The notes under the pieces are model-generated. The model was not told the origin of the DNA. It was given only the letters and a program-made list of their open reading frames with translations, and did not search any database. Of a DNA stretch of 13,253 bases, positions 1 through 13,154 are shown piece by piece; position 1 is the stretch's first letter, and each line of letters begins with the position of its first letter. The position numbers and the translations under genes are program-made. The DNA is from Marinosulfonomonas sp. GTDB lineage: Bacteria; Pseudomonadota; Alphaproteobacteria; Rhodobacterales; Rhodobacteraceae. The stretch lies in NCBI GenBank assembly GCA_019090845.1, contig JAHRVD010000366.1, positions 1 to 13,253 on the forward strand. The letters run 5' to 3'.

Positions 1-330
1 CATTGCTTCGTGGTTGCCCATCAGACATATCGCACCGTCACCCAGCGCTTTAAGCTGCGCCAAAACACCCAGACTATCAGGACCACGGTCAATATAGTCG
101 CCAACAAAAACCCGTTGCGCATCCGGATATTTTGCATCCAGTTTTTTCAGCAGGGGCCCGAGCAAATCCAAACGCCCGTGAATGTCACCGATAACGGCAA
201 CTTCAGTTGTCGGAGCCAGCGCGGGCACCGCATCGTTTTCCTGATTGAGCGTCTTGGGTTTACCGCGAGCCGGGTTCTTTTGTGCAAACCAAGATCGGAT
301 CGTAAACAACATCATCTCACCAAAATTCAT
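1..330 (-). CDS. Metallophosphoesterase (Ser/Thr protein phosphatase-like), N-terminal part
   Basis: The gene is cut by the left edge; 110 codons from the ATG at 330 are visible. It reads as a calcineurin-like phosphoesterase of the bacterial PrpA/diadenosine-tetraphosphatase type. Metal-binding signatures appear in the right order and spacing: GDIHG (residues 48-52), GDYIDRG (77-83) and GNHE (105-108). These Asp, His and Asn residues hold the dinuclear metal centre that hydrolyses phosphate esters; the substrate cannot be told from this fragment. About 45 residues precede the first motif. The start is uncertain: an in-frame ATG pair at 315/312 lies just after a GGTGAG stretch and could be the true start, since no good ribosome site precedes 330. 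The gene is divergent from the oxidoreductase at 500, with 169 bases between them. Family assignment is secure; the physiological role is unknown. Confidence 0.9.
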   Translation of the reverse strand, partial: MNFGEMMLFTIRSWFAQKNPARGKPKTLNQENDAVPALAPTTEVAVIGDIHGRLDLLGPLLKKLDAKYPDAQRVFVGDYIDRGPDSLGVLAQLKALGDGAICLMGNHEAM

Positions 331-429
331 CAGCAAATCATCTGCTGGATAGAGTTTGAGACTAGGCCAACGATCCAACGATGTCTGCAATCGTGTATTT
401 GATTGTCAGCAACGCAGTTGAAAAGGCTC

Positions 430-457
430 TTGGCATTCTCAGGAACGGCCGCATAAA
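430..457 (+). promoter_or_regulatory. Candidate sigma-70 promoter of the flavin oxidoreductase gene
   Basis: TTGGCA at 430-435 matches five of six -35 consensus bases. After a 16-base spacer, CATAAA at 452-457 matches four of six -10 bases. It lies about 43 bases upstream of the ATG at 500, in the divergent spacer. Found by eye only; no transcript evidence. Confidence 0.35.
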
Positions 458-499
458 TGACGCTCACAATCAGATTACTGCAAGTCAGGACAATCCGCT

Positions 500-1498
500 A
501 TGACGATCTATTCCGTGCTGGACCTATCTCCAATTGTCGAGGGGGGCACACCTGCTGACTCTTTGCACAACACTCTGGAACTTGCACAACACGCCGAACG
601 GTTGGGGTTTAAGCGGTTTTGGCTGGCCGAACACCACAATATTCCGGGCATCGCCAGTGCTGCCACCTCGGTGGTTATCGGTTTTGTGGCGGCAGGAACC
701 TCGACCATCCGGGTTGGCTCGGGTGGTGTTATGCTGCCCAACCACGCACCGCTGGTCATCGCCGAACAATTCGGAACGCTGGCAACGCTATACCCCGACC
801 GGATTGATCTGGGCCTTGGCCGCGCGCCCGGAACGGATATGGGAACTGCGCGCGCGTTGCGTCGCGGTATGGAACAGGCCGATACCTTTCCACAGGACGT
901 CATCGAGCTGATCGGCTATCTGGACGATGTTGCACCCGATGCCCGCGTGCGCGCTATCCCCGGACAAGGCACAAAAGTGCCGATCTGGATACTAGGTTCC
1001 AGCCTTTATGGCGCGCAACTGGCCGCGCATCTTGGGCTGCCCTATGCGTTTGCTTCCCACTTTGCCCCCGCCGCTTTGGAACAGGCAGCAGCGATTTACC
1101 GGCAACGCTTTCAGCCCTCGGAATTTTTGGAAAAACCCTATTTCATGTTGGCGGTGAATGTTTTTGCAGCCGATGACGCTGACACAGCGACCTTCCTGAA
1201 AACCTCGGCACAGCAAAGCATAATGCGGTTGCGCAGCGGCAATCCCGGACCTTTGCCGCGCCCGGTGGCCGACATCAGCGCCCAGCTTGACCCGGCGGCG
1301 ATCCGAATGGTGGATGAGGCGCTTTCGTGCTCGGTCATGGGCACACCTGACATGGTCGTTGAAGGAATTGAAAAGTTGATTGCGAAATACACACCGGACG
1401 AGATTATTTTCAACGCAGCTATCCACGATCATACCGCAAGGTTGCGGTCCTTTGCGATCGCCGCAGGGGCAATGCAATCTATCGCAGCTCGGCCTTAA
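500..1498 (+). CDS. LLM-class flavin-dependent oxidoreductase (luciferase-like, YhbW/MsnO8-type)
   Basis: This 332-residue protein is a single-domain bacterial-luciferase-like TIM-barrel enzyme, expected to use reduced FMN and act in the cytoplasm. Typical signatures are AEHHN (residues 43-47), [10 protein letters not shown] (73-82) and [13 protein letters not shown] (101-113), the set seen in the YhbW/MsnO8 branch. Length is normal for the family. The ATG at 500 is preceded by AGGA about ten bases upstream. The substrate is unknown: members of this branch oxidise varied organic compounds and genome context is rarely informative. The gene appears to be a single transcription unit. The next gene starts 219 bases downstream, and I see no functional link between this enzyme and the operon that follows. 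Confidence 0.93.
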
Positions 1499-1556
1499 TC
1501 CCAGTTATTTTGGCCGAAAATCGATCGGGTTCACGTTGTTCCACTCCATTTTGACC

Positions 1557-1570
1557 CCTGCAGTAGCAGG
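1557..1570 (+). terminator. Weak candidate terminator hairpin after the oxidoreductase
   Basis: CCTGC and GCAGG form a perfect 5-bp stem with a 4-base AGTA loop, 58 bases after the stop codon at 1498. A T-rich stretch (TTTCTTTTT, 1579-1587) follows, but eight bases after the stem ends, so this is not a canonical intrinsic terminator. Confidence 0.25.
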
Positions 1571-1634
1571 TGGGCAGGTTTCTTTTTGGTGTAGGCTTAA
1601 GTCAGGCGGCTAATTGCGGCAATTTCCGCTTTGC

Positions 1635-1646
1635 TTCCAATTGGAA
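1635..1646. promoter_or_regulatory. 12-bp perfect palindrome TTCCAATTGGAA upstream of the PqqD/HPr-kinase operon
   Basis: A perfect 12-base inverted repeat sits about 70 bases before the first gene of the operon. It is nested inside a wider inverted repeat, AGGCGGC (1604-1610) with GCCGCCT (1648-1654). It overlaps the candidate promoter, as an operator for a dimeric regulator would. The AT-rich centre could also arise by chance. Function is inferred from position only. Confidence 0.3.
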
Positions 1647-1667
1647 TGCCGCCTAGAAGTCTATGAT
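1641..1667 (+). promoter_or_regulatory. Candidate promoter of the PqqD/HPr-kinase/glycosyltransferase operon
   Basis: TATGAT (1662-1667) matches five of six -10 bases. TTGGAA (1641-1646) matches four of six -35 bases, but the spacer is only 15 bases, shorter than usual. It would place the transcript start about 45 bases before the ATG at 1718. This is the only reasonable promoter I see in the 219-base gap before an operon with no other long gap. Confidence 0.3.
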
Positions 1668-1717
1668 AAGCAGAAGGACCGTTCATCCCTTCGCGACAAG
1701 ACAGAGGTTTTCTGACG

Positions 1718-2128
1718 ATGCCGGACACATCCTATAAAGTTTCCAGCGCCGATATAGTATTTGAAGAGTTCGATGGTGACTTGGTTGTGCTGAATTTGGC
1801 GTCCGGACAATATTTTGGCCTGAACAGCCCCGCGGCTGCAATCTGGACTTCGTTGGTCTCTGGGGTTTGCCCAGCAGATATTGCGAACGCCGGGCCAAAG
1901 GCAAAAGCGGTGAACAAATTTGTCGAAGATCTTTTATCTTTTGAACTAATATTTCCAGCACCAGATGCCAAAGCTACGCTCAAGCCCGGTGAAATCGCAG
2001 CTCTGCGGGCAATCGGACCCGAACCGCTAATCGAAGTCTATGACGATCTTGCCGACCTGATCGTAGCCGATCCTATCCATGATGTTGATCAGGAAGCCGG
2101 CTGGCCTAACCTGCCTACCTCCGAGTAA
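1718..2128 (+). CDS. PqqD-like peptide-recognition (RRE) protein with conserved-looking acidic/Trp tail
   Basis: This 136-residue protein begins with a PqqD/RRE-like winged-helix domain (about residues 8-80). The usual pattern is clear: a beta hairpin with DLVVLNLASGQYFGLN (21-36), then AAAIW (39-43) and a Leu-rich final helix (FVEDLLSFELI). Such domains bind leader peptides and present them to modifying enzymes in PQQ, lasso-peptide and other RiPP pathways. Here it is followed by about 55 more residues, ending in an unusual acidic segment DPIHDVDQEAGWPNL (118-132). No PQQ gene is nearby. It heads a tight operon, 9 bases before an HPr-kinase-like gene, and I recall PqqD-like and HprK-like genes pairing elsewhere. 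An AGAGG ribosome site lies about ten bases before the ATG. The domain call is firm; what it binds is unknown. Confidence 0.85.
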   Translation: MPDTSYKVSSADIVFEEFDGDLVVLNLASGQYFGLNSPAAAIWTSLVSGVCPADIANAGPKAKAVNKFVEDLLSFELIFPAPDAKATLKPGEIAALRAIGPEPLIEVYDDLADLIVADPIHDVDQEAGWPNLPTSE

Positions 2129-2137
2129 TCTTGGATC

Positions 2138-3196
2138 ATGACGCTGGCCAACACCTCAAATGCACCACTGCATCTCAGGCTGGACGGGTTGGAAACCGCG
2201 CTTCGCAAGCTGTTCGACAATTTCGAAAACGCTTATGCAGCCGGAAGATTTGAATCCAGCGGTCCTAGCATGTCATGCCGGACGAACTTTCCCAAGTATG
2301 ATCAAATCTTAAAAAAGGCGCTGGCTTCCGAACAAAGGACAACCGGGGATAAATGCCGTGTTCTGGTGGCCCAAACCGGCAATCTCGGGCTGCCGGATTT
2401 GCGCTGGGGTGAGCATTACTTTCAGGAACGCGAGGTTGAAGCCCAGCTATCGGGCACCCGGTTTCGGCTGCACTATATGGATGACATTGGGTTTTGGCAG
2501 GTTTTTGACCGGCAACACCGAACCGGATTGCAATTGATGCAGTCACCCGATGGATATCCGGATTGGGACCCGGGATCACCGCTGCGAAATTTTATGCATT
2601 GGAATTTAGTGGGTAAGGATCAGGGGTTGGTGCATGCGGGCACGCTGGCGATCGGGGGAACCGGTTTTATGTTTGCTGGCCCCGGCGGTTCTGGCAAGTC
2701 GGCCACGGTGCTGGCGGGTATTGCGGATGGGATGAAATCGGTTGGTGACGACTACGTATTGGCCCGCATTGAAGACGGTTGTGTCAATGCGTCCGCGCTT
2801 TTTACCACTCTGAAGCAGGATCCCGAGGGAATGCAACGTCTTGCCCTCAATCAAGACAATTCAATATCATCGGGCGTCAACTGGCAAGGTAAGCACCAAT
2901 TCACATTGGCCGATGTCAACCCAACCAGCGGTGTTGCGGACATCCAAGTGCACGCCCTTTTCTTGCCCCACGTGACCGGGAATAATACGACGGTCATTCG
3001 TCCTGCTGGCGCAAAAGAAGCCTTTTTGGCACTGGCCCCATCTGGCGTATCACAAATACCGGGCGACCGTGACGCATCGTTCGCCATTTGCGCGAAATTG
3101 GCGCGCGATTTACCCTGTTATCACATCGAGTTGGGCGTCGATCCAAAAGAACTGATCGGCGCGCTTCGCAGTTTCGTGGACAAAGAGCTGTTATGA
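2138..3196 (+). CDS. HPr-kinase/phosphorylase-related P-loop protein (HprK-like)
   Basis: The 352-residue protein has an unrecognised N-terminal half and an HprK-like C-terminal half. Key elements are His166 in VHAG, the P-loop GPGGSGKS (181-188) and GDDY (203-206), in the same order and spacing as the catalytic His, Walker A and Asp pair of HPr kinase. The regulatory N-domain of Firmicutes HprK is absent, so PTS control is unlikely. Relatives include stand-alone HprK-like kinases, some of which phosphorylate RiPP peptides such as class II lasso peptides (established for a few). It follows the PqqD-like gene by 9 bases, and its stop overlaps the next start in ATGA (3193-3196), suggesting translational coupling. 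I infer phosphorylation of a peptide or small molecule handled by the PqqD-like partner; a purely ATP-binding role is possible. Confidence 0.85.
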   Translation: MTLANTSNAPLHLRLDGLETALRKLFDNFENAYAAGRFESSGPSMSCRTNFPKYDQILKKALASEQRTTGDKCRVLVAQTGNLGLPDLRWGEHYFQEREVEAQLSGTRFRLHYMDDIGFWQVFDRQHRTGLQLMQSPDGYPDWDPGSPLRNFMHWNLVGKDQGLVHAGTLAIGGTGFMFAGPGGSGKSATVLAGIADGMKSVGDDYVLARIEDGCVNASALFTTLKQDPEGMQRLALNQDNSISSGVNWQGKHQFTLADVNPTSGVADIQVHALFLPHVTGNNTTVIRPAGAKEAFLALAPSGVSQIPGDRDASFAICAKLARDLPCYHIELGVDPKELIGALRSFVDKELL

Positions 3197-3945
3197 AAAT
3201 CACGGTCATAGTTCCCACGTTCAACCGCGCCAAAACTCTGCCCTATGCAATTCGTTCCTTGGTTGAACAACGCGGCGACGCCGAGCTTGATATACTTGTT
3301 GTGGATGATGGTTCAACAGATGACACGCCGGATATTTTGGCTGATCTGTCACAACAGCACCCGGAAATACGGGTTGTTTCTCAGCCTAATTCCGGTGTCA
3401 CAATGGCGCGAAATACCGGCATCGAAAACCTGCACCCCGAGGCTGAATTTGTCTCATTTCTTGATTCCGATGATCTGTCTCCGGCGGGTCGGTTTGCGGC
3501 AGATTTGCCGAAATTCCAATCTGACCCCTTGGTTGAAATTACTTATGGGCGGATGATGTATGTGGAAAATTTTGATTATACCCGCCTATGCCCACAGACG
3601 GGTTCAAGGACGGCGGATATCATTGGGATTCACTTGTCCTGTGCAATTTTCCGGCGCAGGTTAATTGAACGGATCGGTCGGTTTGATCCGGAATTGCTTC
3701 AAGGCGAAGACACGGATTATTTGCTGCGGGTATTTGAGGCAAACACCAGGTTTTGCCAAACCGATACACAATGCCTTTATTATTTGCGCCATCCCGACAG
3801 TCTTACCAAAAACATCGCAGCCTCCAAACGCTATTTCGCGCTGGCAATTCGCAAGAGCATTCTGCGACGCAAAGCCGACCCCTCGATCCGAATTCACAAA
3901 CCAGATTTTGAAATTCAGGCGCTAAAAACAACAGGATTTTTCTGA
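3193..3945 (+). CDS. Family 2 glycosyltransferase (first of two)
   Basis: From the ATG at 3193, overlapping the previous stop by four bases, the product is 250 residues. It is a GT-A fold, family-2 inverting glycosyltransferase: VIVPTFNRA (5-13), VDDGSTDD (37-44) for nucleotide binding, DSDD (91-94) as the metal-binding DxD, and GEDTDY (171-176) supplying the usual ED catalytic-base region. No membrane segment is seen, so it should be cytoplasmic and transfer from a nucleotide sugar. The frame stays open upstream to 3088, but that stretch lies inside the HprK-like gene and the glycosyltransferase fold begins right at Met-Lys-Ile-Thr, so I chose 3193. Acceptor and donor are unknown; a GDP-sugar made by the last gene of the operon is one candidate donor. 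Confidence 0.92.
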   Translation: MKITVIVPTFNRAKTLPYAIRSLVEQRGDAELDILVVDDGSTDDTPDILADLSQQHPEIRVVSQPNSGVTMARNTGIENLHPEAEFVSFLDSDDLSPAGRFAADLPKFQSDPLVEITYGRMMYVENFDYTRLCPQTGSRTADIIGIHLSCAIFRRRLIERIGRFDPELLQGEDTDYLLRVFEANTRFCQTDTQCLYYLRHPDSLTKNIAASKRYFALAIRKSILRRKADPSIRIHKPDFEIQALKTTGFF

Positions 3946-3947
3946 CC

Positions 3948-4628
3948 ATGGAATACGGGGTTGTCATTCCTGCCTGGAATGCCGGGCGAACAATAGCACA
4001 GGCGCTGGACTCGGTTTTTGCGCAATCAAAGCAGCCGGCACAGGTTGTGGTGGTGGACGATGGATCGACTGACGACACCGCCTCGATCGCGCAATCAGTG
4101 TCTGACCTTGTGCAAATCGTGAAGCAGGAAAACCAAGGCCCAGGCGCCGCTTCATCGCGCGGTATGGGATTATTGACTACACCTTTGGGCGCATTCCTTG
4201 ATGCCGACGATATCTGGCTGCCGTCGAAAATGGCCTGCCAAATCGATATTTTGGTGAAAATGCCGGACGTGGATCTGGTATTTTCAAAAATGCGCCAAAT
4301 TCGGCACGGCTGCGCTGACGATGGAACCGGTGAAGAGCGCGGCGGGGCCACCCGTTCCACGCTAACTATTCGGCGCGAAGTGTTTTTGTCTGTTGGTGAC
4401 ATCATCGATCCAAAAGGCAACCGGGGTGATTTTGTCGACTGGATGGCGCGATTTCGGGAAGCTGGCCATCGGGAACATGAAATTAACGAGGTTCTGGCAT
4501 TGCGCCGGATAATCCCCGGCAGCCTGTCTTTTGGGCGAGATATAACCAAAGACAAAGGTTATCTGGAGGTTGCTCATCGGGCAATTTTGCGCGCGCGTAA
4601 ACGCCAATCTTCTACTGGGAACAAATAA
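3948..4628 (+). CDS. Family 2 glycosyltransferase (second of two)
   Basis: This 226-residue protein starts two bases after the stop of the preceding glycosyltransferase. It carries the GT2 hallmarks: VVIPAWNAG (5-13), VDDGSTDD (36-43), ENQGPGAASSRG (61-72, donor-site loop) and LDADD (84-88, the DxD). The C-terminal third is short; the region expected to contain the catalytic base reads RGDFVDWMARF, resembling the D-W-x-x-R ending of small GT2 enzymes. No membrane helix is visible. Sequence and length differ clearly from the first GT2, so they probably add different sugars or use different acceptors. It most resembles the broad GT2 group found with PqqD/HprK-type loci and surface polysaccharide genes; specificity cannot be read from sequence. 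Confidence 0.92.
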   Translation: MEYGVVIPAWNAGRTIAQALDSVFAQSKQPAQVVVVDDGSTDDTASIAQSVSDLVQIVKQENQGPGAASSRGMGLLTTPLGAFLDADDIWLPSKMACQIDILVKMPDVDLVFSKMRQIRHGCADDGTGEERGGATRSTLTIRREVFLSVGDIIDPKGNRGDFVDWMARFREAGHREHEINEVLALRRIIPGSLSFGRDITKDKGYLEVAHRAILRARKRQSSTGNK

Positions 4629-4632
4629 TTCA

Positions 4633-6129
4633 ATGGGGTATGCAGACGGCCGCTTTTTTCACAGGTTCCCAAACCCCGGCTGGGCGTGGCCACGCGGAAA
4701 CCTGGACCAGTTGTTATTCTCAGCCATAGCGCCGGATCAGGAATTGGCGTTGACCACGTTCAGATCATGGCTTGGTGCGACCGACATAGATGACATGGGG
4801 TTTCGCGAACATCGGCTTTTGGCAGCAGTTGCCGAACGGTTCGGAAATCAGTTGAAGGACCATGACGAATACCCTCGTCTGGTCGGGTTACAGCGCATGC
4901 TTTGGACAAAATCCCGCATGGCGGTGGCCGACGTGTTGCCAACACTTAAAACGCTGGTTGATCACGATATTCCTGTGATGCTGATAAAAGGAGCCGCGCG
5001 GTTGGCGCTCAATCCGGCTGATCAGAAATCTCGTGTGTCCCACGATCTGGACATTCTGGTTCCGCCTTCCCATTTTTCACAGGCCCTCGCCCAACTAAAT
5101 AAATTGGGCTGGAACAGCGCCAGCGGTGAGACGCATTTGTGCCTGACTGCCCGCCATCCCGGGTTGCGGGCGATGAATTTCTTCAAAGGTCGATACGGTG
5201 ATTTAGACCTGCATCAATGGGCATACGGTACAACGCACCAAATTACCGATCCGGAACGCGGGCTTTGGCAGAATGTTCAGCAATCATCCTACTTTGGCGT
5301 TCCGGTTTTCGTGCCCTCAGCCGCCGACAGGATCGCGCTTGCGATTTATCACAGTGGTCGGGAAAGCCATTCTCATAGTGACTGGTTGGTTGACTGTGCC
5401 CACTACCAAAATGATCCGCTGTTGGATTGGGACAGATTACTTGAAATTCTTACGCAGACCAATTCCCTTGTCCCTGCCAAGGTTGCGTTAAGTTATTTGG
5501 AATCTCGGATCGGTATCGCTTTACCACCGAATTTCATGGCTGGTTTATTTTTCGACCGTCAGAAAAACCTGCTAAAATTAGCATCCGACATGCTTCAGTC
5601 AAAGCCACGCAGCGACTGGAACACGGTAACAAAACTCGGGCGGGGGGTCGCAAAGCAAAGCCAGATGGCTCGCAGCCAACGACCCGTCGTAAACAGCTTG
5701 ATTATTCGCGGAAAGGTTACTGGTAAACGAAGCGGTGCAAGTCGCGGGTTCATAACCAGAATTTGCCTTGGCGCTGCAAAAACTGGAATTCATGCCATCA
5801 GATTGGAAATTGATGTCGATCTTCCGGGTGTGGCGCGACGGTTAGAATTTGAACTTAACTCGGAGAACCGGCATTTGGCGCGATTGCAGATACGTCAGTA
5901 TCGCAACCGCAAAGGACGCTTCGGGCTGATATACACCGGAAAGTTGGACTTGAACGATGAGGACAAAAATATCTGGCTGGACGCACGGCCCGGTCGTCAC
6001 CTGCGCGGCGGCGAACCGCAATTGATGGTCCAAAAATATGGCATTGTGCCTTTTCGCGTAGTTTCTTTTGAGTTGAGCGGCACCCAAATGGACGGGTTTG
6101 CAGGCAAAATTGGTGTGGTTGGGCAATAA
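4633..6129 (+). CDS. Nucleotidyltransferase-family protein with C-terminal domain of unknown function
   Basis: From the ATG at 4633 the product is 498 residues. Residues 110-150 hold the NTP_transf_5 signature: LIKGAA (117-122), then R134...HDLDILV (137-143), whose DxD would bind metal and nucleotide as in polymerase-beta-fold nucleotidyltransferases. The first 350 residues fit that family, which often accompanies HprK-like and PqqD-like genes. From about residue 350, after a basic stretch, there are some 140 residues, probably beta-rich (repeated RLEFEL, LIYTG-type strands), that I cannot assign. An alternative TTG start at 4570 would overlap the glycosyltransferase and sits directly on a GGAGG, too close to be used. 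The activity, nucleotidyl transfer to a sugar, peptide or protein, is inferred from the family only. Confidence 0.82.
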   Translation: MGYADGRFFHRFPNPGWAWPRGNLDQLLFSAIAPDQELALTTFRSWLGATDIDDMGFREHRLLAAVAERFGNQLKDHDEYPRLVGLQRMLWTKSRMAVADVLPTLKTLVDHDIPVMLIKGAARLALNPADQKSRVSHDLDILVPPSHFSQALAQLNKLGWNSASGETHLCLTARHPGLRAMNFFKGRYGDLDLHQWAYGTTHQITDPERGLWQNVQQSSYFGVPVFVPSAADRIALAIYHSGRESHSHSDWLVDCAHYQNDPLLDWDRLLEILTQTNSLVPAKVALSYLESRIGIALPPNFMAGLFFDRQKNLLKLASDMLQSKPRSDWNTVTKLGRGVAKQSQMARSQRPVVNSLIIRGKVTGKRSGASRGFITRICLGAAKTGIHAIRLEIDVDLPGVARRLEFELNSENRHLARLQIRQYRNRKGRFGLIYTGKLDLNDEDKNIWLDARPGRHLRGGEPQLMVQKYGIVPFRVVSFELSGTQMDGFAGKIGVVGQ

Positions 6130-7134
6130 ATGACAAAGGTAACAGTGAAAAAATCTGCGTTAGTGTGTGGTGCTGGCGGGTTCATCGGCGGGCATCTTGC
6201 CAATCGACTGAAACAAGAGGGGTTCTGGGTTCGGGGTGTCGACCTGAAACATGGCGAGTTTGAGAATTCCACCTGTGACAGCTTCATTCTGGGCGACTTG
6301 CGGGATCGAACCTTTGCAGAAGATGTGATTGACCACAAATTTGACGAAGTTTATCAGCTTGCGGCCGACATGGGTGGCGCGGGCTATGTTTTCTCTGGCG
6401 CAAACGATGCAAATGTCATGCATAATTCCGCCCTGATCAATTTAAATGTTCTGGACGTATGCAAAAATCGCGACATCAAAAGCGTTCTGTTTTCGTCATC
6501 AGCCTGCATTTATCCTGAGCATAATCAACTGGATCCCGACACGCCCAACTGCGCAGAAGACAGCGCCTACCCAGCCAGCCCGGACAGTGAGTATGGTTGG
6601 GAAAAGATATTTTCCGAACGGCTCTACCTGGCCTATAATCGAAACTTCGATATGAATTGCCGCGTGGCACGCTACCACAATATTTTCGGTCCCTATGGCA
6701 CATGGACGGGCGGAAAAGAAAAAGCTCCCGCCGCGATAAGTCGAAAAATTGCGTTGGCCCAGGATGGCGATTCAATTGATATTTGGGGCGACGGTCTGCA
6801 GACGCGCTCTTTCCTATATGTAGACGAATGCCTTGAGGGAACGCTCCGACTGATGCGATCCGATATTGGCGAACCTGTTAATATTGGCTCCGAAGAAATG
6901 GTAACGATCAACGAACTTGCGATGCTTCTGATCGCAATTTCCGGAAAAGATCTAAAGATCAATCATATTCCCGGTCCATTGGGCGTTCGCGGGCGAAATT
7001 CCGACAATCGGCTTATTCGCAAGTTACTGGATTGGGAACCGCAGGAACCGTTAATTACCGGAATGGAACGAACTTATAAATGGATCGCCGCCGAAGTTGC
7101 AAAACAACAAACAGCCGGCAGTTTCACCGTATAG
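6130..7134 (+). CDS. gme: GDP-mannose 3,5-epimerase (extended SDR)
   Basis: The 334-residue protein is an extended short-chain dehydrogenase/epimerase. GAGGFIGG (14-21) binds NAD. SSSACIYPE (122-130) carries Cys126 and YGWEK (155-159) is the Tyr/Lys pair. GPYGTWTGGKEKAPAA (187-202) carries Lys198. Cys126 and Lys198 line up with the two acid/base residues of plant GDP-mannose 3,5-epimerase (Cys145 and Lys217 in Arabidopsis, from memory), and GVRGRNSDN near the end is also shared. The enzyme should therefore turn GDP-D-mannose into GDP-L-galactose and GDP-L-gulose in the cytoplasm. Its ATG directly follows the TAA of the nucleotidyltransferase gene, so it is the last gene of the operon. It most likely supplies an activated L-sugar to a neighbouring transferase. 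Other GDP-sugar epimerases are less likely given both catalytic residues. Confidence 0.92.
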   Translation: MTKVTVKKSALVCGAGGFIGGHLANRLKQEGFWVRGVDLKHGEFENSTCDSFILGDLRDRTFAEDVIDHKFDEVYQLAADMGGAGYVFSGANDANVMHNSALINLNVLDVCKNRDIKSVLFSSSACIYPEHNQLDPDTPNCAEDSAYPASPDSEYGWEKIFSERLYLAYNRNFDMNCRVARYHNIFGPYGTWTGGKEKAPAAISRKIALAQDGDSIDIWGDGLQTRSFLYVDECLEGTLRLMRSDIGEPVNIGSEEMVTINELAMLLIAISGKDLKINHIPGPLGVRGRNSDNRLIRKLLDWEPQEPLITGMERTYKWIAAEVAKQQTAGSFTV

Positions 7135-7142
7135 TGCCGGTT
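7113..7142. terminator. Hairpin between convergent epimerase and fucosyltransferase-like genes
   Basis: AGCCGGCA (7113-7120) pairs with TGCCGGTT (7135-7142) as an 8-bp stem with one G-T pair and a 14-base loop that includes the epimerase stop codon. It lies in the 37-base gap between convergent genes, where a bidirectional terminator is expected. No strong T-run follows on either strand, so it may only slow or process transcripts. Confidence 0.35.
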
Positions 7143-7171
7143 GCACGGGCGAATTTGCTCGCTGCACTAAT

Positions 7172-8365
7172 TCAATTCTGTTGCTCCACGATCCGGGGGC
7201 CAATTCGGCTGGTAATATTGTGGCGACGACGAATTTTGTTCCTGATGGACAATGTTTTTCTTTTGGCACCAAAATTCCAGCGCCACTGGTCAAGCAGATG
7301 AAATAATCGCCGCAAGACGATGCAGAAATTGCCGCGGCGTGTGTTCTGGGCCGAATATTTGTCACCATCGCCAAATAGCGGTTTCAGCAGATCAGCATCC
7401 CCATTTTTAAAAAGCATCTCAAGCGTTAGTCTTTCAGCCCGAAGCGATACAACCAAATTTGAGAAACCGGAAAATCGCACGCCATTTGAATTTGTCGGGG
7501 CCAATCCGGTAAACACGAAATTCTTTGCGCGAGCCATTGCGACAAGATCACTGAACAGATCAAGCGCGGCAATTTGTGGGCTGACCAAATCTGATTCTGA
7601 CAGTGTAACCCCATCAGTTTCGGGCACATTGGAAACGCTCAATAGTCTGGTCGAAGGGTGGAAACACGATCTAGCGAAACTTTTGACTTTTTTGCTATCC
7701 GAACAAATCAACAAGTTCCGGCCCGCAAACAAACCTTTGGTGCGCCTGAAAAGGTTTTCATAATCGGTTTGATAATCGGTGTGGCGGATGTGAATGGCGT
7801 CATAGTCAGGTCCAATCGGGATCAGCCTTTTGGCAATGGCGTTTGCCAGATCAGCAGTGAACGCCAAGTCCCGCAAGACACATAAACCCGCAAGCCCGCC
7901 ACCGGCTTGCTCATACACAAGCAACGTCTCTGGGTGATCCGACTGGTGGTCAAAATTGATGTAAGAACCGGAGTCCCTGTCCTTGTATTGGACAACTTCA
8001 TTGTCCCATTCAGCAACGTAAAGCGAGGTGCGTTTGGCAAGGTTTTTGGGTCTGACGGATGTAATTTCATCCAGTTCGTTCCCGATTTCCTCGTTCCAGA
8101 TCAAAACTTCACAACCAAAATCATTCTGAATTTCAAACATGTCATCAATATGCGCACGAAGCCCGGATCGGGACATGTCCAAAACCAAAACCCGATCATA
8201 AGCCGATGCATATCGGCGCGATTTTTCCAGTTGGACCAAAGCGTCATTCAAACCGCCACGAGGACGCGTCAAAAGATATCGCTTATCGTTCTTAAGATGC
8301 CGCATCGGGTTTGGTTCGTCCTCAAATATCGGTGGTAGCATTTTGACCAGAAAACCGCTGCTCAT
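7172..8365 (-). CDS. Putative fucosyltransferase-like glycosyltransferase (NodZ/O-FucT fold)
   Basis: The 397-residue protein has the outline of GDP-fucose-dependent GT-B transferases. RPRGGLNDAL (34-43) is followed by RRYASAYDRVLVLD (50-63), resembling the N-terminal substrate loop. IHIRHTDY (191-198) carries the His-x-Arg motif whose Arg binds the GDP phosphates in NodZ and O-fucosyltransferases. LLICSDS (218-224) and the final ALDLFSDLVAMARAKNFVFTG stretch, here described by its two ends, match the C-terminal donor half. Overall similarity is remote. A basic tail (about 345-397) is unassigned. No signal peptide is evident; the start could be Met1, Met9 or Met21. It converges on the epimerase gene, whose GDP-L-galactose product resembles GDP-fucose; I infer but cannot show that this is its donor. 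Base composition looks as AT-rich as the operon. Confidence 0.72.
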   Translation of the reverse strand: MSSGFLVKMLPPIFEDEPNPMRHLKNDKRYLLTRPRGGLNDALVQLEKSRRYASAYDRVLVLDMSRSGLRAHIDDMFEIQNDFGCEVLIWNEEIGNELDEITSVRPKNLAKRTSLYVAEWDNEVVQYKDRDSGSYINFDHQSDHPETLLVYEQAGGGLAGLCVLRDLAFTADLANAIAKRLIPIGPDYDAIHIRHTDYQTDYENLFRRTKGLFAGRNLLICSDSKKVKSFARSCFHPSTRLLSVSNVPETDGVTLSESDLVSPQIAALDLFSDLVAMARAKNFVFTGLAPTNSNGVRFSGFSNLVVSLRAERLTLEMLFKNGDADLLKPLFGDGDKYSAQNTRRGNFCIVLRRLFHLLDQWRWNFGAKRKTLSIRNKIRRRHNITSRIGPRIVEQQN

Positions 8366-8392
8366 GAAATGGAAATCTCGGCTATGACCGAG

Positions 8393-8423
8393 TTGCGGCC
8401 AAACCAGATGTTTGCGAGATAAT
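8393..8423 (+). promoter_or_regulatory. Candidate promoter of the ankyrin/cytochrome c gene
   Basis: GATAAT (8418-8423) matches five of six -10 bases. The best -35, TTGCGG (8393-8398), is poor and the spacer is 19 bases. The start codon at 8467 lies about 43 bases downstream. Found by eye in the divergent spacer. Confidence 0.3.
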
Positions 8424-8436
8424 CGTGTATACGCGC

Positions 8437-8446
8437 GGTAATTACC
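8437..8446. promoter_or_regulatory. Palindrome GGTAATTACC in the leader of the ankyrin/cytochrome c gene
   Basis: A perfect 10-base palindrome lies 20 bases before the start codon and just downstream of the candidate -10, with a second small palindrome, GTATAC, at 8427-8432. The spot suits an operator. A separate 5-bp hairpin (CTCGG/CCGAG, 8377-8392) sits nearer the divergent minus-strand gene. No regulator is recognisable in the window. Confidence 0.25.
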
Positions 8447-8466
8447 AATTACTGGGAGTAAGGAAT

Positions 8467-9315
8467 ATGTTTTGTAATCGCCTATTGCACTTTTCCGTCG
8501 TGATACTTGCGGTTTGGGTTTCGGCTGAAAATGCCAATGCCGAGACGATCCATTTGATGGCCCGCAAAGGCGACGTTGCAGCGGTAATGGCTGAGATCGA
8601 CAAAGGCGTAGATGTTAATCTGCCCAGCACCAGACATACGTCCGAGGCCGGTGCCTCACCGCTATTTATTGCGGCAAGGTTCGGAAAAGCCGATGTGGTT
8701 GTCGCGCTGATAGGCGCCGGAGCGGATATCCATAAATTCTTGAAAGAACCCCATGGGGGTACCCATGGCACGCCGCTGCACGCAGCATCCCGCTTTGGTT
8801 CGGTTGAGGTGGTTGAAGTGTTGCTAGAGGCAGGAGCCGATCCAAACGTGGATGGGCCAGTAGTTGGGACCCCTCTACATTTGGCACTATGGCATGGCCA
8901 CTTGGAAATTGCACAAACCTTGATTGCTGCCGGAGCCACAGAACGCGTCGTGCAAGCACCCATATCCTCTATGCTGGCTGGCGCCAGTCTGGAACTGGGC
9001 AAGGAGGCCATAACAGGGTGTGGAGCCTGCCACAGCTTGGTTGCGGACCGAAACGATCCTGATATTGGTCCGACGCTCTGGGGCATCGTCGGTCGACCAA
9101 TCGCTTCGGTCGAAGGATTTGAATATTCATCGAGTATGGCGGCTGAAAATGGAAGTTGGGACTATAAAACCCTGAACAGTTTTATCGCTGCGCCGAAGCT
9201 ATATATGCCCGGATCTCACATGCGCGCGGTCGGCGAGATTGACGACGTTACGCGCAGAGCCGCAGCAATAGCGTATCTGCGGACACTTGCAGATAATCCG
9301 CTGCCGCTTCCTTGA
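8467..9315 (+). CDS. Exported ankyrin-repeat / cytochrome c fusion protein
   Basis: From the ATG at 8467 (TAAGGA just upstream) the protein is 282 residues. Residues 1-25 are a Sec signal peptide ending near ANA-E. Residues about 26-165 form four ankyrin-type repeats, with SPLFIAARFGKADVV, TPLHAASRFGSVEVVEVLL and TPLHLALWHGHLEIAQTLI as the clear cores. A class I cytochrome c domain follows: CGACH (185-189) attaches the heme, GPTLWGIVGR matches the helix after it, and Met247 in YMPGSHM is the likely axial ligand. It should be a periplasmic, soluble electron carrier with a protein-binding arm. An earlier GTG at 8425 would add 14 residues ahead of the signal peptide and lacks a ribosome site. 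The redox partner is unknown; it has no operon neighbours. Confidence 0.93.
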   Translation: MFCNRLLHFSVVILAVWVSAENANAETIHLMARKGDVAAVMAEIDKGVDVNLPSTRHTSEAGASPLFIAARFGKADVVVALIGAGADIHKFLKEPHGGTHGTPLHAASRFGSVEVVEVLLEAGADPNVDGPVVGTPLHLALWHGHLEIAQTLIAAGATERVVQAPISSMLAGASLELGKEAITGCGACHSLVADRNDPDIGPTLWGIVGRPIASVEGFEYSSSMAAENGSWDYKTLNSFIAAPKLYMPGSHMRAVGEIDDVTRRAAAIAYLRTLADNPLPLP

Positions 9316-9350
9316 GTATTTGTTTGGGCATATCCCGAAAATATTTCCAG

Positions 9351-9374
9351 GACCGCTTCGGGCTAAAAGCGGTC
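9351..9374. terminator. Strong hairpin between convergent genes
   Basis: GACCGCTT (9351-9358) and AAGCGGTC (9367-9374) form a perfect 8-bp stem with an 8-base loop. It lies between the cytochrome fusion (ends 9315) and the convergent DUF6868 gene (ends 9407). Read on the minus strand the stem is followed, after about eight bases, by a TATTTT stretch, so it fits best as terminator of the DUF6868 gene and may act both ways. Confidence 0.5.
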
Positions 9375-9406
9375 ATTGGCTCGGATCGCTCGTCACAGCC
9401 AATATA

Positions 9407-9646
9407 TCACATCAGCTTGAGCGCAATATAGGGGGCAAAGGCGAACACCACCGCCATAATTTTGTAGTTCCCCGCCCAACTGAAATAGGCCAGTTTCAGG
9501 TCTTTTTCATCTATCCCAAACATACGTTGATGAATGCCAATCATCCACGATTGCAATCCCAACATAGCCACCGTGGCAAACGCCAGGTAGGCGATGTTTA
9601 TCACAGCCATCCAGCCAAAGAATGTGGTAAGAGTTTCAACGGTCAT
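9407..9646 (-). CDS. DUF6868-family small membrane protein
   Basis: A 79-residue protein with two hydrophobic segments (about residues 10-30 and 60-77) joined by a polar loop with WMIGIHQRMFGIDEKD (34-49). Layout and motifs (ETLTTFFGW at the start, a Y-K pair before the second helix, a P-Y-I-A-L ending) match the DUF6868 family of marine bacteria, whose function is unknown. The start is well fixed: AGGAG at 9654-9658 lies seven bases upstream of the ATG at 9646. The frame is open a further 29 codons upstream, but that would run through the ribosome site. It probably sits in the inner membrane. It is a lone gene, convergent with the cytochrome fusion. Confidence 0.82.
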   Translation of the reverse strand: MTVETLTTFFGWMAVINIAYLAFATVAMLGLQSWMIGIHQRMFGIDEKDLKLAYFSWAGNYKIMAVVFAFAPYIALKLM

Positions 9647-10034
9647 ACTGGTTCTCCTAATTTTTGCCGACATACCCCAAGTAGAATGCCAAGGCGGGAA
9701 AATTGCCCCTGCATGGCATTTCTGACAAGTCATTTATTTAGAGCGCAACGGACGTCCGCCTGCCGCCTAGTGTCGAATGCGCCGCTTGGATTTGGGGTGC
9801 GAACGGCCCATACTGGTCATTGACCAACTCATTTGGCGCTGCGGCGCAGCTTTGGAATTGCGGACATTCAACCCCGATGCAGAATCTTAAACACATGAGG
9901 TCTGCAATGCCGACAAAGCGGCCATCAAACTTCGCGACCATTCGATGAGCCGTCCAGGCAAGGGTCTTCAAACGATAGTCTTGTAGGACCGGATGATTTC
10001 GTGTTCAAGTTTGGGATCAAGTGGGAGAAATGAA
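9647..10034. other. 388-base divergent spacer without a convincing gene
   Basis: The stretch between the DUF6868 and DUF4345 genes holds only unconvincing reading frames (a 77-codon frame on the minus strand, 9738-9971, has no ribosome site or family resemblance). It contains a 13-base palindrome (9814-9826), a small GCTGC-GGC-GCAGC hairpin (9838-9850) and a GCGGACATTC stretch of a kind I recall from roseobacter intergenic regions. It may be decayed or repeat-derived DNA carrying two divergent promoters. Confidence 0.5.
9814..9826. repeat. 13-base palindrome TGGTCATTGACCA
   Basis: Two perfect 6-base arms, TGGTCA and TGACCA, flank a single central T. It is in the middle of the divergent spacer, 168 bases from the DUF6868 start and 209 bases from the DUF4345 start, which is far for a simple operator. 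It could be a regulator site or part of a repeated element. Confidence 0.35.
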
Positions 10035-10436
10035 GTGGCAGTTTTTCAAGTTATCGTGCTGGTTGCATCGGGGGCTTTGCTTACCTTTGCGGGATCCATG
10101 AGGTTCATCAAACCGAAGGGTTCTTTATGCCTAGATACTTACTTGGCCGACTCAACAAACGATTTGCAAAATGACCAGGACTTGGCCAGTGAAATGCGCG
10201 GTGCGGGGGCGATCACCGCGGTTTTCGGAGTGATCATCTTACTCGGTATTATTCTTCCGGATTTTCGATTGACGTCATTCGTATGCGCAACTGTGTTTTA
10301 TCTCGGATATGCATTTGGACGGGGTTTTAGCTGGATCAAAGATGGTAAGCCAACCAGCCGGACAAGATTGGGATTTGGCATGGAAACGGTCCTTGGCGCT
10401 CTCAGCGGCATTTGCCTCGTCAACATTCTCAGTTAA
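10035..10436 (+). CDS. DUF4345-family membrane protein
   Basis: From the GTG at 10035 the product is 133 residues with four hydrophobic segments (about 5-23, 57-75, 80-97, 114-131). The E-M-R-G motif before the second helix and the overall four-helix plan match DUF4345, a small inner-membrane family of unknown function. The GTG start is chosen because GGGAGA lies six bases upstream (10023-10028) and the hydrophobic helix begins right after it. An ATG at 9993 would add 14 residues and lacks a ribosome site, while the ATG at 10030 is out of frame. The gene stands alone between long spacers. Confidence 0.82.
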   Translation: MAVFQVIVLVASGALLTFAGSMRFIKPKGSLCLDTYLADSTNDLQNDQDLASEMRGAGAITAVFGVIILLGIILPDFRLTSFVCATVFYLGYAFGRGFSWIKDGKPTSRTRLGFGMETVLGALSGICLVNILS

Positions 10437-10639
10437 CTGGATTATCTTACGCTCTGCATAGAGGTTTTTGCCGTTGAAATTTCAATCGTCCGCTTTGGGC
10501 TCGAAGTTGCCATTCGCTGCGGGTTGCACCAAGGTCTGCAGAGCGGGACTTAGTGAGCTTTCGTTGCGGTTGCACCAATGTCTGCCTTGTCGATCAGCCG
10601 GTTAAAAATTGAGCGTGCATGATAAGCCAGCGGTCGCGA
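10437..10639. other. 203-base spacer between convergent genes
   Basis: No gene is seen between the ends of the DUF4345 and YjeF-like genes. It contains a perfect 12-base palindrome, TTGAAATTTCAA (10474-10485), and the direct repeat at 10515-10585. There is no clear stem followed by a T-run, so I cannot place a terminator. Confidence 0.5.
10515..10585. repeat. Imperfect direct repeat of about 25 bases, two copies
   Basis: The copies are 10515-10539 (CGCTGCGGGTTGCACCAAGG and five more bases) and 10562-10585. They differ by two substitutions and one missing G, and their starts are 47 bases apart. The shared core is GGTTGCACCAA. It is noncoding and lies between convergent genes, so it looks like part of an intergenic repeat family rather than an operator array. 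Confidence 0.6.
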
Positions 10640-11353
10640 TCAATATTCAGCCATGTCTAGCGGGACGACCTCGCCGCAGTGCTGTCCGCAGACACAGCGC
10701 CGATATGCGGGGCAGTCACCGAATACGCTGATCGTCAGATCGTATCGGTCTGCGACCATGTTTGTGATATAGCCATCTTCAATGATTTCCGCTTCAGAAT
10801 AATCGATAAACTCACCGGTTCCTGCGTCATAGCCGGACGGCAAGTCGAGCGCGACAAGCGTGTAGTTGTCGCTATATCCGTTCGTCCATCCAAGGATTTC
10901 GCGCCAATACATACCTATGGGTCTGGTGAGTTCACGGCCAAACACCGCATCAATGACGATATCGCGTTCGTCAAAGCATTCGTTCATGACGTTCATCGCA
11001 TTTAGTTCGCCGCCATGGGGGATTTCGGGGAAGGAGCGATGGATCGCGGGGCCTATTTTACGTAGGGCTTTCGGGTAGCGTTCGTCGATCCGATCATGCT
11101 GGTCGCAATAGAACAGTTGGACAATATGTTGCCGTTCAACCAGATGTTTGGCAGCGAAGGCGCCAAGCGTGCCGACAAAGCCGGGGCCGCAGAACACTGT
11201 AAAAGTACAGCCTTCCAAAGATCGTCTCTCCGCGATCAACTCAACAATGCGGCGCCCTGCACGGTTCATTAGCTCCAAACCTTCAGTACGCCCGTTGGTA
11301 TCAATAGCAGCGCTTTCCAGCACTTTAGCCCCGATTTCGGAGAGAATTTCCAT
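10640..11353 (-). CDS. YjeF N-terminal domain protein (NAD(P)HX-epimerase-like) with degenerate loop
   Basis: The 237-residue protein has the YjeF-N fold: GLELMNRAG (25-33), CGPG (55-58), VIDAVFGRELTRPIG (133-147) and ALDLPSGYDAGTG (168-180). NnrE epimerases of this fold interconvert damaged hydrated NAD(P)H forms. Here the normally conserved nucleotide loop NNGGDG reads FVGTLG (59-64), losing both Asn and the Asp, although Asp135 and Asp170 remain. There is no C-terminal YjeF-C dehydratase domain. The tail has Cys214, Cys220, Cys222 and Cys226, which could bind a metal. True epimerase activity is doubtful; a scaffold or other ligand role, as for some eukaryotic YjeF-N proteins, is possible. 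Start 11353 is chosen because it matches the family N-terminus and follows AAGGA; the frame extends to 11416. Confidence 0.8.
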   Translation of the reverse strand: MEILSEIGAKVLESAAIDTNGRTEGLELMNRAGRRIVELIAERRSLEGCTFTVFCGPGFVGTLGAFAAKHLVERQHIVQLFYCDQHDRIDERYPKALRKIGPAIHRSFPEIPHGGELNAMNVMNECFDERDIVIDAVFGRELTRPIGMYWREILGWTNGYSDNYTLVALDLPSGYDAGTGEFIDYSEAEIIEDGYITNMVADRYDLTISVFGDCPAYRRCVCGQHCGEVVPLDMAEY

Positions 11354-11563
11354 TGTTGTTTTGATCCTTGTTGCGGCATTAAATCGTAACTGTTCGGCGG
11401 AAGAGGCTTCGCGCACTATCTCACTTGATCAACATAACCGGACATTCGTACAAGGTGCAGCATAAGTCACAATGGGGCGTTGCGGGCTGCGAACGCAGCA
11501 TTCGGTGACCGGTGGTCTCGAAGTCCGGTTTGGGCCGTTATCTGCCAAGAATTGCCAAATAAT
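11354..11563. other. Spacer between the YjeF-like gene and tRNA-Thr
   Basis: Noncoding 210-base stretch upstream of the YjeF-like gene and downstream of the tRNA. It should contain the YjeF-like promoter, but I find no good pair of promoter boxes. GCTGCG (11486-11491) and CGCAGC (11494-11499) form a tight 6-bp inverted repeat. Confidence 0.45.
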
Positions 11564-11639
11564 TGGTGCCGCATGAGGGACTTGAACCCCCGACCCATCA
11601 CTTACGAAGCGATTGCTCTACCAGCTGAGCTAATGCGGC
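11564..11639 (-). tRNA. tRNA-Thr, anticodon CGT
   Basis: Read on the minus strand, the cloverleaf is complete: acceptor GCCGCAT/ATGCGGC, D arm with GCTCAGCTGGTAGAGC, anticodon stem ATCGC/GTGAT around loop TTCGTAA, and a T arm GGGGG-TTCAAGT-CCCTC with one G-T pair. The anticodon CGT (plus-strand 11604-11606) reads ACG, so the tRNA carries threonine. The discriminator is A, followed by an encoded CCA (11564-11566 on the opposite strand). It follows the HemY-type gene by 42 bases on the same strand. Confidence 0.97.
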
Positions 11640-11656
11640 ACTTGGGCGGCTATTAG

Positions 11657-11674
11657 CACCCCGCAACTAGGGTG
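11657..11674 (-). terminator. Small hairpin after the HemY-type gene
   Basis: CACCC (11657-11661) and GGGTG (11670-11674) form a 5-bp stem with an 8-base loop between the HemY-type stop and the tRNA. On the minus strand it is followed by TAATAG rather than a T-run, so it is a weak terminator or a processing site. Confidence 0.3.
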
Positions 11675-11681
11675 TGTAGCC

Positions 11682-13145
11682 TTAATCTTTGTCCCCCGGA
11701 TCATCAGGCATGTGAACAACACCCTCTGGGGTGTTTTCGGGTTCAACCTCATCGGCAACTTCCGTTTCGGGCAGCCCAACAATAAGCGGCAGCATTTCGC
11801 TCGAGGCCGGCATTGCCACCTCGCCTTCGACAGGAATTTTCCAGGACATCGTGTCAAAGCCGTTGCAGTTGTTACAAACCGGGCCCCACGCGCTGTGAAC
11901 TGTCTGGCAGTTTTCGCACACCCACTGCGGGCCGCGTGACGCTGTGACAGCGCGGGTCAGCCAGCCGCGCACGACATCATCCTTGCTGCCTTCGCCACGT
12001 TCAATCGCCGCCATGATCGTCAGCGATCTTGCGGTTGGGTCGGTTTCAACCAACTCGCCGATGGATAGTCTGGCCGCTTCGTAATCCTTGGCGGCAATAT
12101 ACAGTTCTGCCATCAGCATTCGTGCCTCGGGATGGTCTGGGTCGTTTTTGACCAGACCCTGAAACCGCTTGATGCGGGCGTTGGCTTCTTCCTCGGGCAT
12201 GATGCTGGCAAAGGCCGATGCAAGGTCTGGGTGGGGCCGGACTTCCCACGCGGTTTTCAGCACCCTGCTCGCAAATCGCGAACGGCCGTCGGTGATATAG
12301 GCCTGCGCCGCCATCACTGCCGCCGGGATCAGATCGGGCGACAAACGGTTGGCTTCGATTGCCTCCTGGCGTGCTTCAATCGTGCTGCCGTTGCGAAAAA
12401 CCTCGCGGGCCTGGGATAGGGCCAGAACCGCGTCGCGGCGTTTGTGAACATCGCGCGGCAGGGCACCGTGGCGCTGTTTTAGCGCCAGCGTTTCGCGCGC
12501 ACCTTTCCAGTCCTCTTGCTCAGCCTGAAGCCGCAACAGGACATCCCCGGTTTCCGTGTGGCGTGGTTTTAGCGCAAAAGCTCGCTCGGCCAGTTTCATC
12601 GCAACTTCGGTTTCACCGTCTTCCAGTTTTTGCTTCATAATACCGCGCACACCGACAAAACGGGTGCGGTCGTCTTCCAGAAGGCGCTTGTAAACTTCGG
12701 TGGCTTTTCTGCGGTCACCGGTCATCTCGGCCGCCTGAGCGGTAATCAAATTGGTCAGTTCAGGCCTGCCCAGATATTTTTCGGCCTTAGCCGCCTTTGA
12801 CATCGCAACACGCCCCTCGCCCGACGCAAGTGCTGTCATCCCTTCTGACAAAGCCTCAAACCCGCGCCGTTCGCGATTGCGGTTGAAATAGCGCGACAGG
12901 GCGGTTTCATCGCCGTTCAGAAAGCGGACAATGGCCCCCAGAAAGCTCAGGATTTTCAGAACCAGCCAAAAGGCAACGAGCAAAACAATGACCGCGACAA
13001 CGCCCTGAAGCGGTCCCAGATTGAACTCGGTGTTGGCTATGGCGATACGCAGACCACCGCCGCTTTCAGCCAGATAACCCGCACCCAAGGTCAGCAGGGC
13101 AACAGCCGTGATGAAAAAGATAATTTTGAATAACGACCAGATCAT
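11682..13145 (-). CDS. hemY: HemY-type inner-membrane TPR protein with C-terminal zinc ribbon
   Basis: The 487-residue protein has two N-terminal membrane helices (about 3-25 and 47-69), as in the HemY N-terminal domain. A long helical region of tetratricopeptide-like repeats (about 90-390) follows, then a Cys4 ribbon: C410/C413 in WVCENC and C424/C427 in PVCNNC. The tail is acidic. This is the alphaproteobacterial form of the gene at the end of heme-synthesis operons; it is unrelated to the Bacillus protoporphyrinogen oxidase also called HemY. Its role is thought to be organisation of heme-synthesis enzymes or porphyrin handling at the membrane. The start at 13145 has AGGTGG upstream and lies nine bases after the stop of the previous gene, so both are one operon. 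Family call is secure. Confidence 0.94.
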   Translation of the reverse strand: MIWSLFKIIFFITAVALLTLGAGYLAESGGGLRIAIANTEFNLGPLQGVVAVIVLLVAFWLVLKILSFLGAIVRFLNGDETALSRYFNRNRERRGFEALSEGMTALASGEGRVAMSKAAKAEKYLGRPELTNLITAQAAEMTGDRRKATEVYKRLLEDDRTRFVGVRGIMKQKLEDGETEVAMKLAERAFALKPRHTETGDVLLRLQAEQEDWKGARETLALKQRHGALPRDVHKRRDAVLALSQAREVFRNGSTIEARQEAIEANRLSPDLIPAAVMAAQAYITDGRSRFASRVLKTAWEVRPHPDLASAFASIMPEEEANARIKRFQGLVKNDPDHPEARMLMAELYIAAKDYEAARLSIGELVETDPTARSLTIMAAIERGEGSKDDVVRGWLTRAVTASRGPQWVCENCQTVHSAWGPVCNNCNGFDTMSWKIPVEGEVAMPASSEMLPLIVGLPETEVADEVEPENTPEGVVHMPDDPGDKD

Positions 13146-13154
13146 TTACGCCAC

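Follow-up and report, generated by a model that had tools for sequence, protein, structure and literature searches.

A six-gene operon of Marinosulfonomonas sp. (Rhodobacteraceae) raises the question of what its recognition protein, kinase, and transferases act on. The operon lies on the forward strand of contig JAHRVD010000366.1 (assembly GCA_019090845.1), of which positions 1 to 13,253 were analyzed, hereafter the window. It encodes, in order, a PqqD-like protein, an HprK-like kinase, two glycosyltransferases of family 2 (GT2a and GT2b), a protein of the NTP_transf_5 family (NTP5), and a GDP-mannose 3,5-epimerase (GME). When the open reading frames (ORFs) and the sequence were read again, we obtained the six genes with junctions of 9, -4, 2, 4, and 0 bases, exactly as stated in an initial annotation made from the sequence alone, and the domain families it had named held up in Pfam, NCBIfam, and structure matches. 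That annotation had named no peptide candidate. The PqqD-like protein supplies one in its own conserved tail: it is a lasso-type recognition element (RRE) for ribosomally synthesized and post-translationally modified peptides (RiPPs) carrying a C-terminal extension. We give an even chance to the reading that the operon is a self-presenting, RiPP-like peptide-tailoring pathway, in which the RRE presents its own peptide to the kinase, the two GT2s, and a transferase of FKRP/ANT fold.

The first gene encodes an RRE fused to a conserved tail

The PqqD-like protein, whose nearest named relatives are from Rhodobacteraceae, scored 23.0 bits against PF05402, below the cut-off of 23.4, and many of its homologues carry a precomputed PF05402 assignment. 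The predicted structure shows the β3-α3 winged-helix fold of leader-binding RREs. The closest solved relatives are TbiB1 and TfuB1, lasso B1 RREs that were solved with leader peptides and have the same fold. Their chains comprise 84 to 99 residues, and the alignments end at about residue 84 of the window protein, leaving the tail without a counterpart. Lasso RREs bind YxxP-type motifs in a cleft between α3 and β3 (PMC12710340).

The tail has the consensus P.[VI]E.[YF]DDLADLI.ADPIHDVD...GWP. Among 95 aligned rows of the window's subgroup, mean pairwise identity was 0.43 in the RRE (residues 10-80), 0.15 in the linker, 0.68 in residues 102-131, and 0.75 in residues 113-131. D118, P119, H121, and G128 were present in all 95 rows, W129 and P130 in 94, and P103 in 91. 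The tail recurs in Pseudomonadota, on one cyanobacterial plasmid, and in two Firmicute metagenome-assembled genomes (MAGs; L035 and L036), whose identity to the window protein was 0.30 and 0.20 in the RRE and 0.79 in residues 113-131. Tails beyond the window's subgroup mostly read [YF][TSD]DMQ[DE]LL.LDP[IV]H[DE]V..xGWP. The cyanobacterial example, on Crinalium plasmid pCRI9333.04, is likewise fused and lies beside genes for a nucleotidyltransferase, an HPr kinase, an FkbM methyltransferase, and glycosyltransferases. Third-position identity at matched degenerate codons was about equal in the tail (0.40) and the RRE (0.35; 28 genes). Thus, it is at the protein level that the tail is conserved.

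AlphaFold predicted a strand at residues 105-108 (predicted local distance difference test, pLDDT, about 87) and a disordered tail core (pLDDT about 52-56). A motif similar to those bound by RREs, [YF]xxPx[LVI], was found in divergent tails and in short tail-bearing ORFs. The tails of two loci found through the kinase (L075 and L076) read Y[QA][SA]P[AT]L.RYDDMA[ED]LLALDP followed by PLPAAPR, without IHDV...GWP, and by sequence they resemble a leader with a changed core. Because a YxxP-like segment precedes the core, a strand is predicted there, and the core is modeled as disordered, the anatomy of the tail is best described, on the predicted structure, as leader plus core fused to its own reader. 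No paper containing DPIHEV or DPIHDV, and no description of an RRE-tail fusion, came up in a literature search covering few subscription journals.

A five-gene cassette recurs across loci

We compared the window with 30 further loci (L008-L037) collected by an alignment search with the PqqD-like protein and by tail patterns, and scored gene presence by profile searches on six-frame translations. RRE-tail, HprK, GT2a, GT2b, and NTP5 followed one another in this order, all on the same strand, in 25 of the 31 loci, window included. Counted anywhere in a locus, HprK occurred in 31, GT2a in 31, GT2b in 30, NTP5 in 28, a radical SAM protein in 7, a NodZ-like protein in 6, and GME in 3; within 5 kb of the RRE gene, the respective counts were 31, 30, 30, 28, 7, 5, and 2. 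The five genes therefore form a real cassette and not a chance assembly. This bears out the initial claim that the genes belong together, against which co-occurrence no better than chance had been named as evidence. Of the six-gene unit proposed there, the five-gene core recurs, but GME does not belong to it.

Departures from the common order were few. Nothing was visible beyond GT2a in L013, an 8.2-kb contig; L031 and L033 gave no NTP5 match; both glycosyltransferases were present in L034 in unclear order; and the Firmicute MAGs showed the order NTP5-HprK-RRE-GT2. A planctomycete MAG (L037) carried a typical cassette, possibly through a binning error. As separate observations, a second NTP5 gene lies beside the cassette in L017 (4996-6096, upstream) and L055 (8468). 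In L036, the NTP5 copy at 7662-8864 apparently lacks the DxD pair while the rest of the cassette is kept, and a second NTP5 match starts at 6273. In L035, four tandem homologous genes (11106-15813; 381-401 amino acids) come after the cassette; the first contains an SGGADS motif and reaches no Pfam cut-off.

The kinase was detected in 6 of 295 genomes of the family and 7 of 385 of the class, and the tail in 6 of 385 genomes of the class and 5 of 398 of the phylum. Samples drawn around other genomes gave the tail in 4 of 149 (G1052, phylum level), 1 of 48 (G774, class level), and 1 of 149 (G1050, phylum level); all of these samples, family to phylum, include their own central genome. The family sample held one more genome of the window's genus, G061, and it gave no kinase match. 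Among the cultured bearers of the cassette are Yoonia tamlensis (L021) and Sedimentimonas flavescens (L010). Thus, the system is rare and patchy.

Tail and kinase predict each other

The HprK-like protein scored 17.8 bits against Hpr_kinase_C (PF07475; cut-off 33.3) and 29.1 bits against HprK_rel_A (TIGR04352; cut-off 200), so by sequence it is HprK-like but outside the named families. Structures of HPr kinases matched it around the P-loop only. H166, K187, D204, and D205 are invariant in all 20 aligned proteins, and a His-Lys-Asp-Asp motif is described for peptide kinases of the PadeK/ThcoK/LppK type (PMC9266682).

Because the loci L008-L037 had been found with tail patterns, and the proteins P0001-P0120 by shared words, tail conservation is partly built into these sets. 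GWP was absent from both seed patterns, yet DPIH...GWP was present in 31 of 31 loci. Searches with the kinase alone, a fairer test, returned 12 places besides the window, all 12 of which carried a match to the tail profile. Five of these were new (L055-L057, L075, and L076), five had also come up in tail searches (L046, L047, L049, L050, and L052), and two (L053 and L054) are apparently the same contigs as L008 and L009 of the first set. DPIH or DPVH...GWP was found in 8 of the 12 (L046, L047, L049, L050, L053-L055, and L057). Conversely, of 17 loci that the tail had brought up beyond the first set, 15 had the kinase gene within 5 kb; it was missing from L048 and from L051, a 3.7-kb contig. 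Tail and kinase thus predict each other, and no other partner is linked to the tail as closely as the kinase.

Short tail-bearing proteins and second copies

A search with the tail alignment returned 331 short proteins at E <= 10. Among the matches listed, 103 of 120 short tail-bearing proteins fit [YFWL]xxPx[LVIFAM]xx[YFHV], and 20 of 120 had a Met start with at most 35 residues ahead of DPIH. These sequences are a lead toward a split version with a stand-alone precursor. A search for such a peptide with a 40-residue piece from the window gave no candidate, none was found on viral contigs, and the same search on plasmids gave Crinalium alone, where the tail is fused. Second copies in G1046 and G1048 likewise proved to be RRE fusions.

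Two Bauldia genomes hold a second RRE-tail gene with an HprK gene (L108, 8269-8877; L109, 7832-8296), and the tail there reads ERYDDIAKIIAMDPIHDVDATTGWP. In L109, this second pair is followed by an AsnB-like gene (11246-13063; likeness and start judged by eye) and a GT2 gene.

A proposed self-presented substrate and its alternatives

In the pathway we favor, the first gene would encode RRE and substrate peptide in one chain. As a β strand, the [YF]xxPx[LVI] or P.[VI]E.[YF] segment of the tail may dock on its own RRE, so that the flexible core, DLADLIVADPIHDVD..xGWP, would stay accessible. Phosphorylation by the HprK-like kinase would then activate either the peptide or a sugar attached to it, after which the NTP_transf_5 enzyme (ANT/MenT/FKRP fold) would add a nucleotidyl or a sugar-phosphate/hexose unit, and GT2a and GT2b would extend the glycan. 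In this strain, GME may supply GDP-L-galactose, which the adjoining NodZ-like protein may use. The conserved candidates for the modified residue are Asp, His, and Trp; the residue, the order of steps, and the sugar are all conjectural.

Several observations weigh against this pathway. The characterized kinases PadeK and LppK act on Ser (PMC9266682, PMC13381572), and the tail, if taken as the substrate, lacks such a target: it holds no invariant Ser, Thr, or Tyr, and 34 of the 95 tails have none of these from DPIH onward. Either Asp, His, or Trp would thus be modified, or the tail only docks. The YxxP form fits just 8 of the 95 rows of the window's subgroup; P.[LVIFAMT][EDS].[YFH]..[LM] fits 87. 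No pairing partner of the predicted strand can be read from the AlphaFold output, and the core cassette holds neither a peptidase nor an exporter. The core itself is not without exceptions, as the tail of L052 is YSLPVLEEFDELRELLLADIVHDTDDAGWP (DIVH...GWP), L056 has DPIHD without GWP, L075 and L076 lack IHDV...GWP, and the W of the L115 tail is not followed by P. The stand-alone tail peptides, moreover, could be mis-called fragments.

Owing to this weak point in Ser, Thr, and Tyr, we rate self-presentation no higher than even and consider it possible, if less probable, that the tail serves in docking or activation and is not a product; this is the main alternative. The RRE-tail protein would then be an adaptor whose tail binds the kinase or a glycosyltransferase, and the enzymes would act on something else, for example a glycan, a lipid-linked sugar, or a peptide that escaped notice. 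The missing conserved Ser, Thr, or Tyr, the missing peptidase, and the tight linkage of the tail to the kinase all fit such a role, as do L113 (11.8 kb) and L114 (5.4 kb), which show RRE-tail and HprK genes alone, with no GT2 or NTP5 match. However, for a pure docking peptide one would hardly expect 20 residues to be kept across phyla while linker and RRE diverge, the segment before the core resembles the part that RREs bind, and short tail-only ORFs are predicted. That the RRE instead acts in trans on a separate, unrecognized precursor, with the tail as a regulatory extension, seems improbable. Precedents are the lasso B1 proteins and LppB, discrete RREs whose precursors are proteins of their own (PMC9266682, PMC13381572), but clusters common to at least three of the 31 loci held no further family of small ORFs (ORFs of at least 40 amino acids, a search that misses shorter or very divergent peptides), and the tail itself shows leader features. 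We regard as equally unlikely an ordinary surface-polysaccharide locus with a GDP-L-galactose branch, whose glycan synthesis the RRE and kinase would regulate. The two GT2s, GME, the NodZ-like gene, and a pyruvyl transferase in L035 would suit it, and the clusters for linear polyphosphorylated peptides (LPP) are themselves located in capsule loci (PMC13381572). Yet the Pfam scan of the 13 window proteins detected no family of Wzx, Wzy, or priming-transferase type, and across loci the RRE, kinase, GT2, and nucleotidyltransferase genes are constant while the sugar-supply genes vary.

Core invariance of this kind is seen in cofactor precursors such as PqqA and MftA more than in antimicrobial RiPPs. 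By this likeness, the end product may be no weapon but a conserved cofactor, a carrier, or a glycan primer. In its full form this idea is speculative and, in our estimate, rather doubtful: a factor made from a peptide, both phosphorylated and glycosylated, with a core that hardly varies (ADPIHDVD..xGWP), common to Proteobacteria, Cyanobacteria, and Firmicutes, whose precursor is the tail of its own recognition domain and which is modified on Asp, His, or Trp and not on Ser.

Transferases and accessory genes

In NTP5, a nucleotidyltransferase-fold domain (about residues 84-307) is followed by a C-terminal β-sandwich (about residues 356-486), and D138, D140, and D192 hardly vary across 26 rows. 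Among solved structures, none matched its sequence at E <= 1. The predicted fold of residues 84-307 is common to FKRP and to ANT(2'')/LnuA/MenT, with the β-sandwich additional in NTP5.

GME matched the plant enzyme 2c59 nearly along its whole length (residues 12-331), including the SSACIYPE segment, and the next families scored about 100 bits. The plant enzyme serves ascorbate synthesis, whereas the window protein is bacterial and sits in a peptide/glycan operon. Within the window's family, 5 of 120 genomes carried GME, and it was enriched, though on very small numbers, in cassette-bearing genomes (hypergeometric p 0.0025-0.008, a range that assumes 3 to 5 kinase-positive genomes in the sample, the number being not fully known). 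The window aside, two of four GME-positive genomes were also kinase-positive, and in one of these two, G012, GME was on a different contig from the cassette. A sequence cluster of short-chain dehydrogenases/reductases had been read as GME in six loci; this was rejected, as only three reach E 1e-60 with a GME profile. A NodZ-like gene accompanies GME in each of these three loci. The NodZ-like copies are distant, with E 0.055 to NodZ in the window, 22.2 bits in L028 (cut-off 28.3), and no Pfam match in L021, and a GDP-sugar-dependent transferase is a possible assignment from the sequences. GME would make GDP-L-galactose, a 6-hydroxy analogue of GDP-fucose, which is the substrate of NodZ; by this analogy, the GME/NodZ-like pair may transfer L-galactose. 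The operon may make a glycosylated product, and L-galactose could be its sugar.

A radical SAM gene lies beside the cassette in 7 of the 31 loci (L008, at 2569-3567, L009, L010, L011, L015, L016, and L019), in six of them directly before the RRE gene or after NTP5. The best NCBIfam matches of the five proteins scanned were weak and of the MoaA, cytosylglucuronate decarboxylase, and PTO1314 types. The window's own, incomplete genome (2.25 Mb, 434 contigs, 73.7% complete) gave only a weak match on another contig (E 8.5e-6, 30% identity), so we rejected radical SAM as a core gene and treated it as accessory.

Layout of the window

The spacing of the six genes (Table 1) suggests that they are co-transcribed. 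Promoter-like sites in the window were no commoner than in shuffled sequences (4 versus 5.6), and terminator-like sites gave no clear signal (11 versus 7.2, SD 2.7). Downstream, positions 8467-9312 encode one protein in which a cytochrome c domain (23.1 bits, cut-off 21.3) comes after ankyrin repeats (98.8 bits), and positions 9410-13145 encode DUF6868, DUF4345, YjeF_N, and HemY_N/TPR proteins with no visible link to the cassette.

Table 1. Positions of the operon, its first protein's segments, and the convergent neighbor in the window.
Feature	Position	Strand	Evidence
PqqD-like RRE-tail protein, 136 aa	1718-2128	+	ORF list, Pfam, homologues
RRE (PqqD-like) domain, residues 1-84	1718-1969	+	
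Leader-like tail segment, residues 102-111 (EPLIEVYDDL)	2021-2050	+	Predicted strand; P103 in 91/95 rows; Y..P.L in L075/L076
Tail core, residues 112-131 (ADLIVADPIHDVDQEAGWPN), nearly invariant	2051-2110	+	95-row conservation; disordered in model
HprK-like kinase, 352 aa	2138-3196	+	H166, K187, D204, D205 invariant in 20/20
GT2a, 250 aa	3193-3945	+	PF00535, 91 bits
GT2b, 226 aa	3948-4628	+	PF00535, 79 bits
NTP5 (NTP_transf_5) protein, 498 aa	4633-6129	+	PF14907, 65.4 bits (cut-off 31.2)
GME, accessory	6130-7134	+	328 bits to 2c59
NodZ-like protein, 397 aa, convergent with GME	7172-8365	-	NodZ, E 0.055

Comparison with pseudomycoidin, LPP, and lasso clusters

The initial annotation knew of no characterized example of such an operon, but characterized relatives of its RRE, HprK-like kinase, and nucleotidyltransferase trio exist in PsmK/PsmN (PMC9266682) and, with LppK/LppN, in the LPP clusters of Bacillota (PMC13381572). 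In the pathway of pseudomycoidin, a lasso peptide of the paeninodin type, PsmK and PsmN, an HprK-like kinase and a nucleotidyltransferase-family enzyme, act on a lasso precursor, and PsmN adds one or two hexoses to phospho-Ser (PMC9266682). The window has the same enzyme pair; in contrast, its RRE bears the candidate peptide on its own C terminus, two GT2s are added, the core has no invariant Ser, and the Pfam scan of the 13 window proteins found neither a B2 peptidase nor a C cyclase of the Asn-synthetase-like kind.

LPP clusters share with the cassette a discrete RRE, an HprK-like kinase, an NTP transferase, a YxxP-type leader, and the lack of a macrolactam cyclase (PMC13381572). They further comprise an SpI peptidase, an MsbA-like exporter, and separate Ser-phosphorylated precursors with variable C termini, whereas the core in the window is nearly invariant, C-terminal, and part of the RRE protein. 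The same scan of the 13 window proteins detected neither a peptidase nor an exporter family, and the window's tail lacks the HQxIxFETxxS part of the LPP precursor motif YxxPxVLxHQxIxFETxxS; an ABC transporter is present in some other loci (L017, L057, and L077).

The reading we favor, at even odds, is a pathway related to pseudomycoidin and LPP tailoring whose cassette holds no peptidase, cyclase, or exporter. The sets of RRE, HprK-like kinase, and nucleotidyltransferase reported in Firmicutes belong to lasso and linear peptides that are phosphorylated on Ser (PMC9266682, PMC13381572); here, the same trio comes with two GT2s and with a peptide that hardly changes and forms one chain with the RRE. 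The tail gives the five-gene cassette a concrete substrate candidate of about 20 residues, and a kinase of HprK-like type acting on a peptide without Ser, Thr, or Tyr would, if true, be new chemistry relative to these systems.

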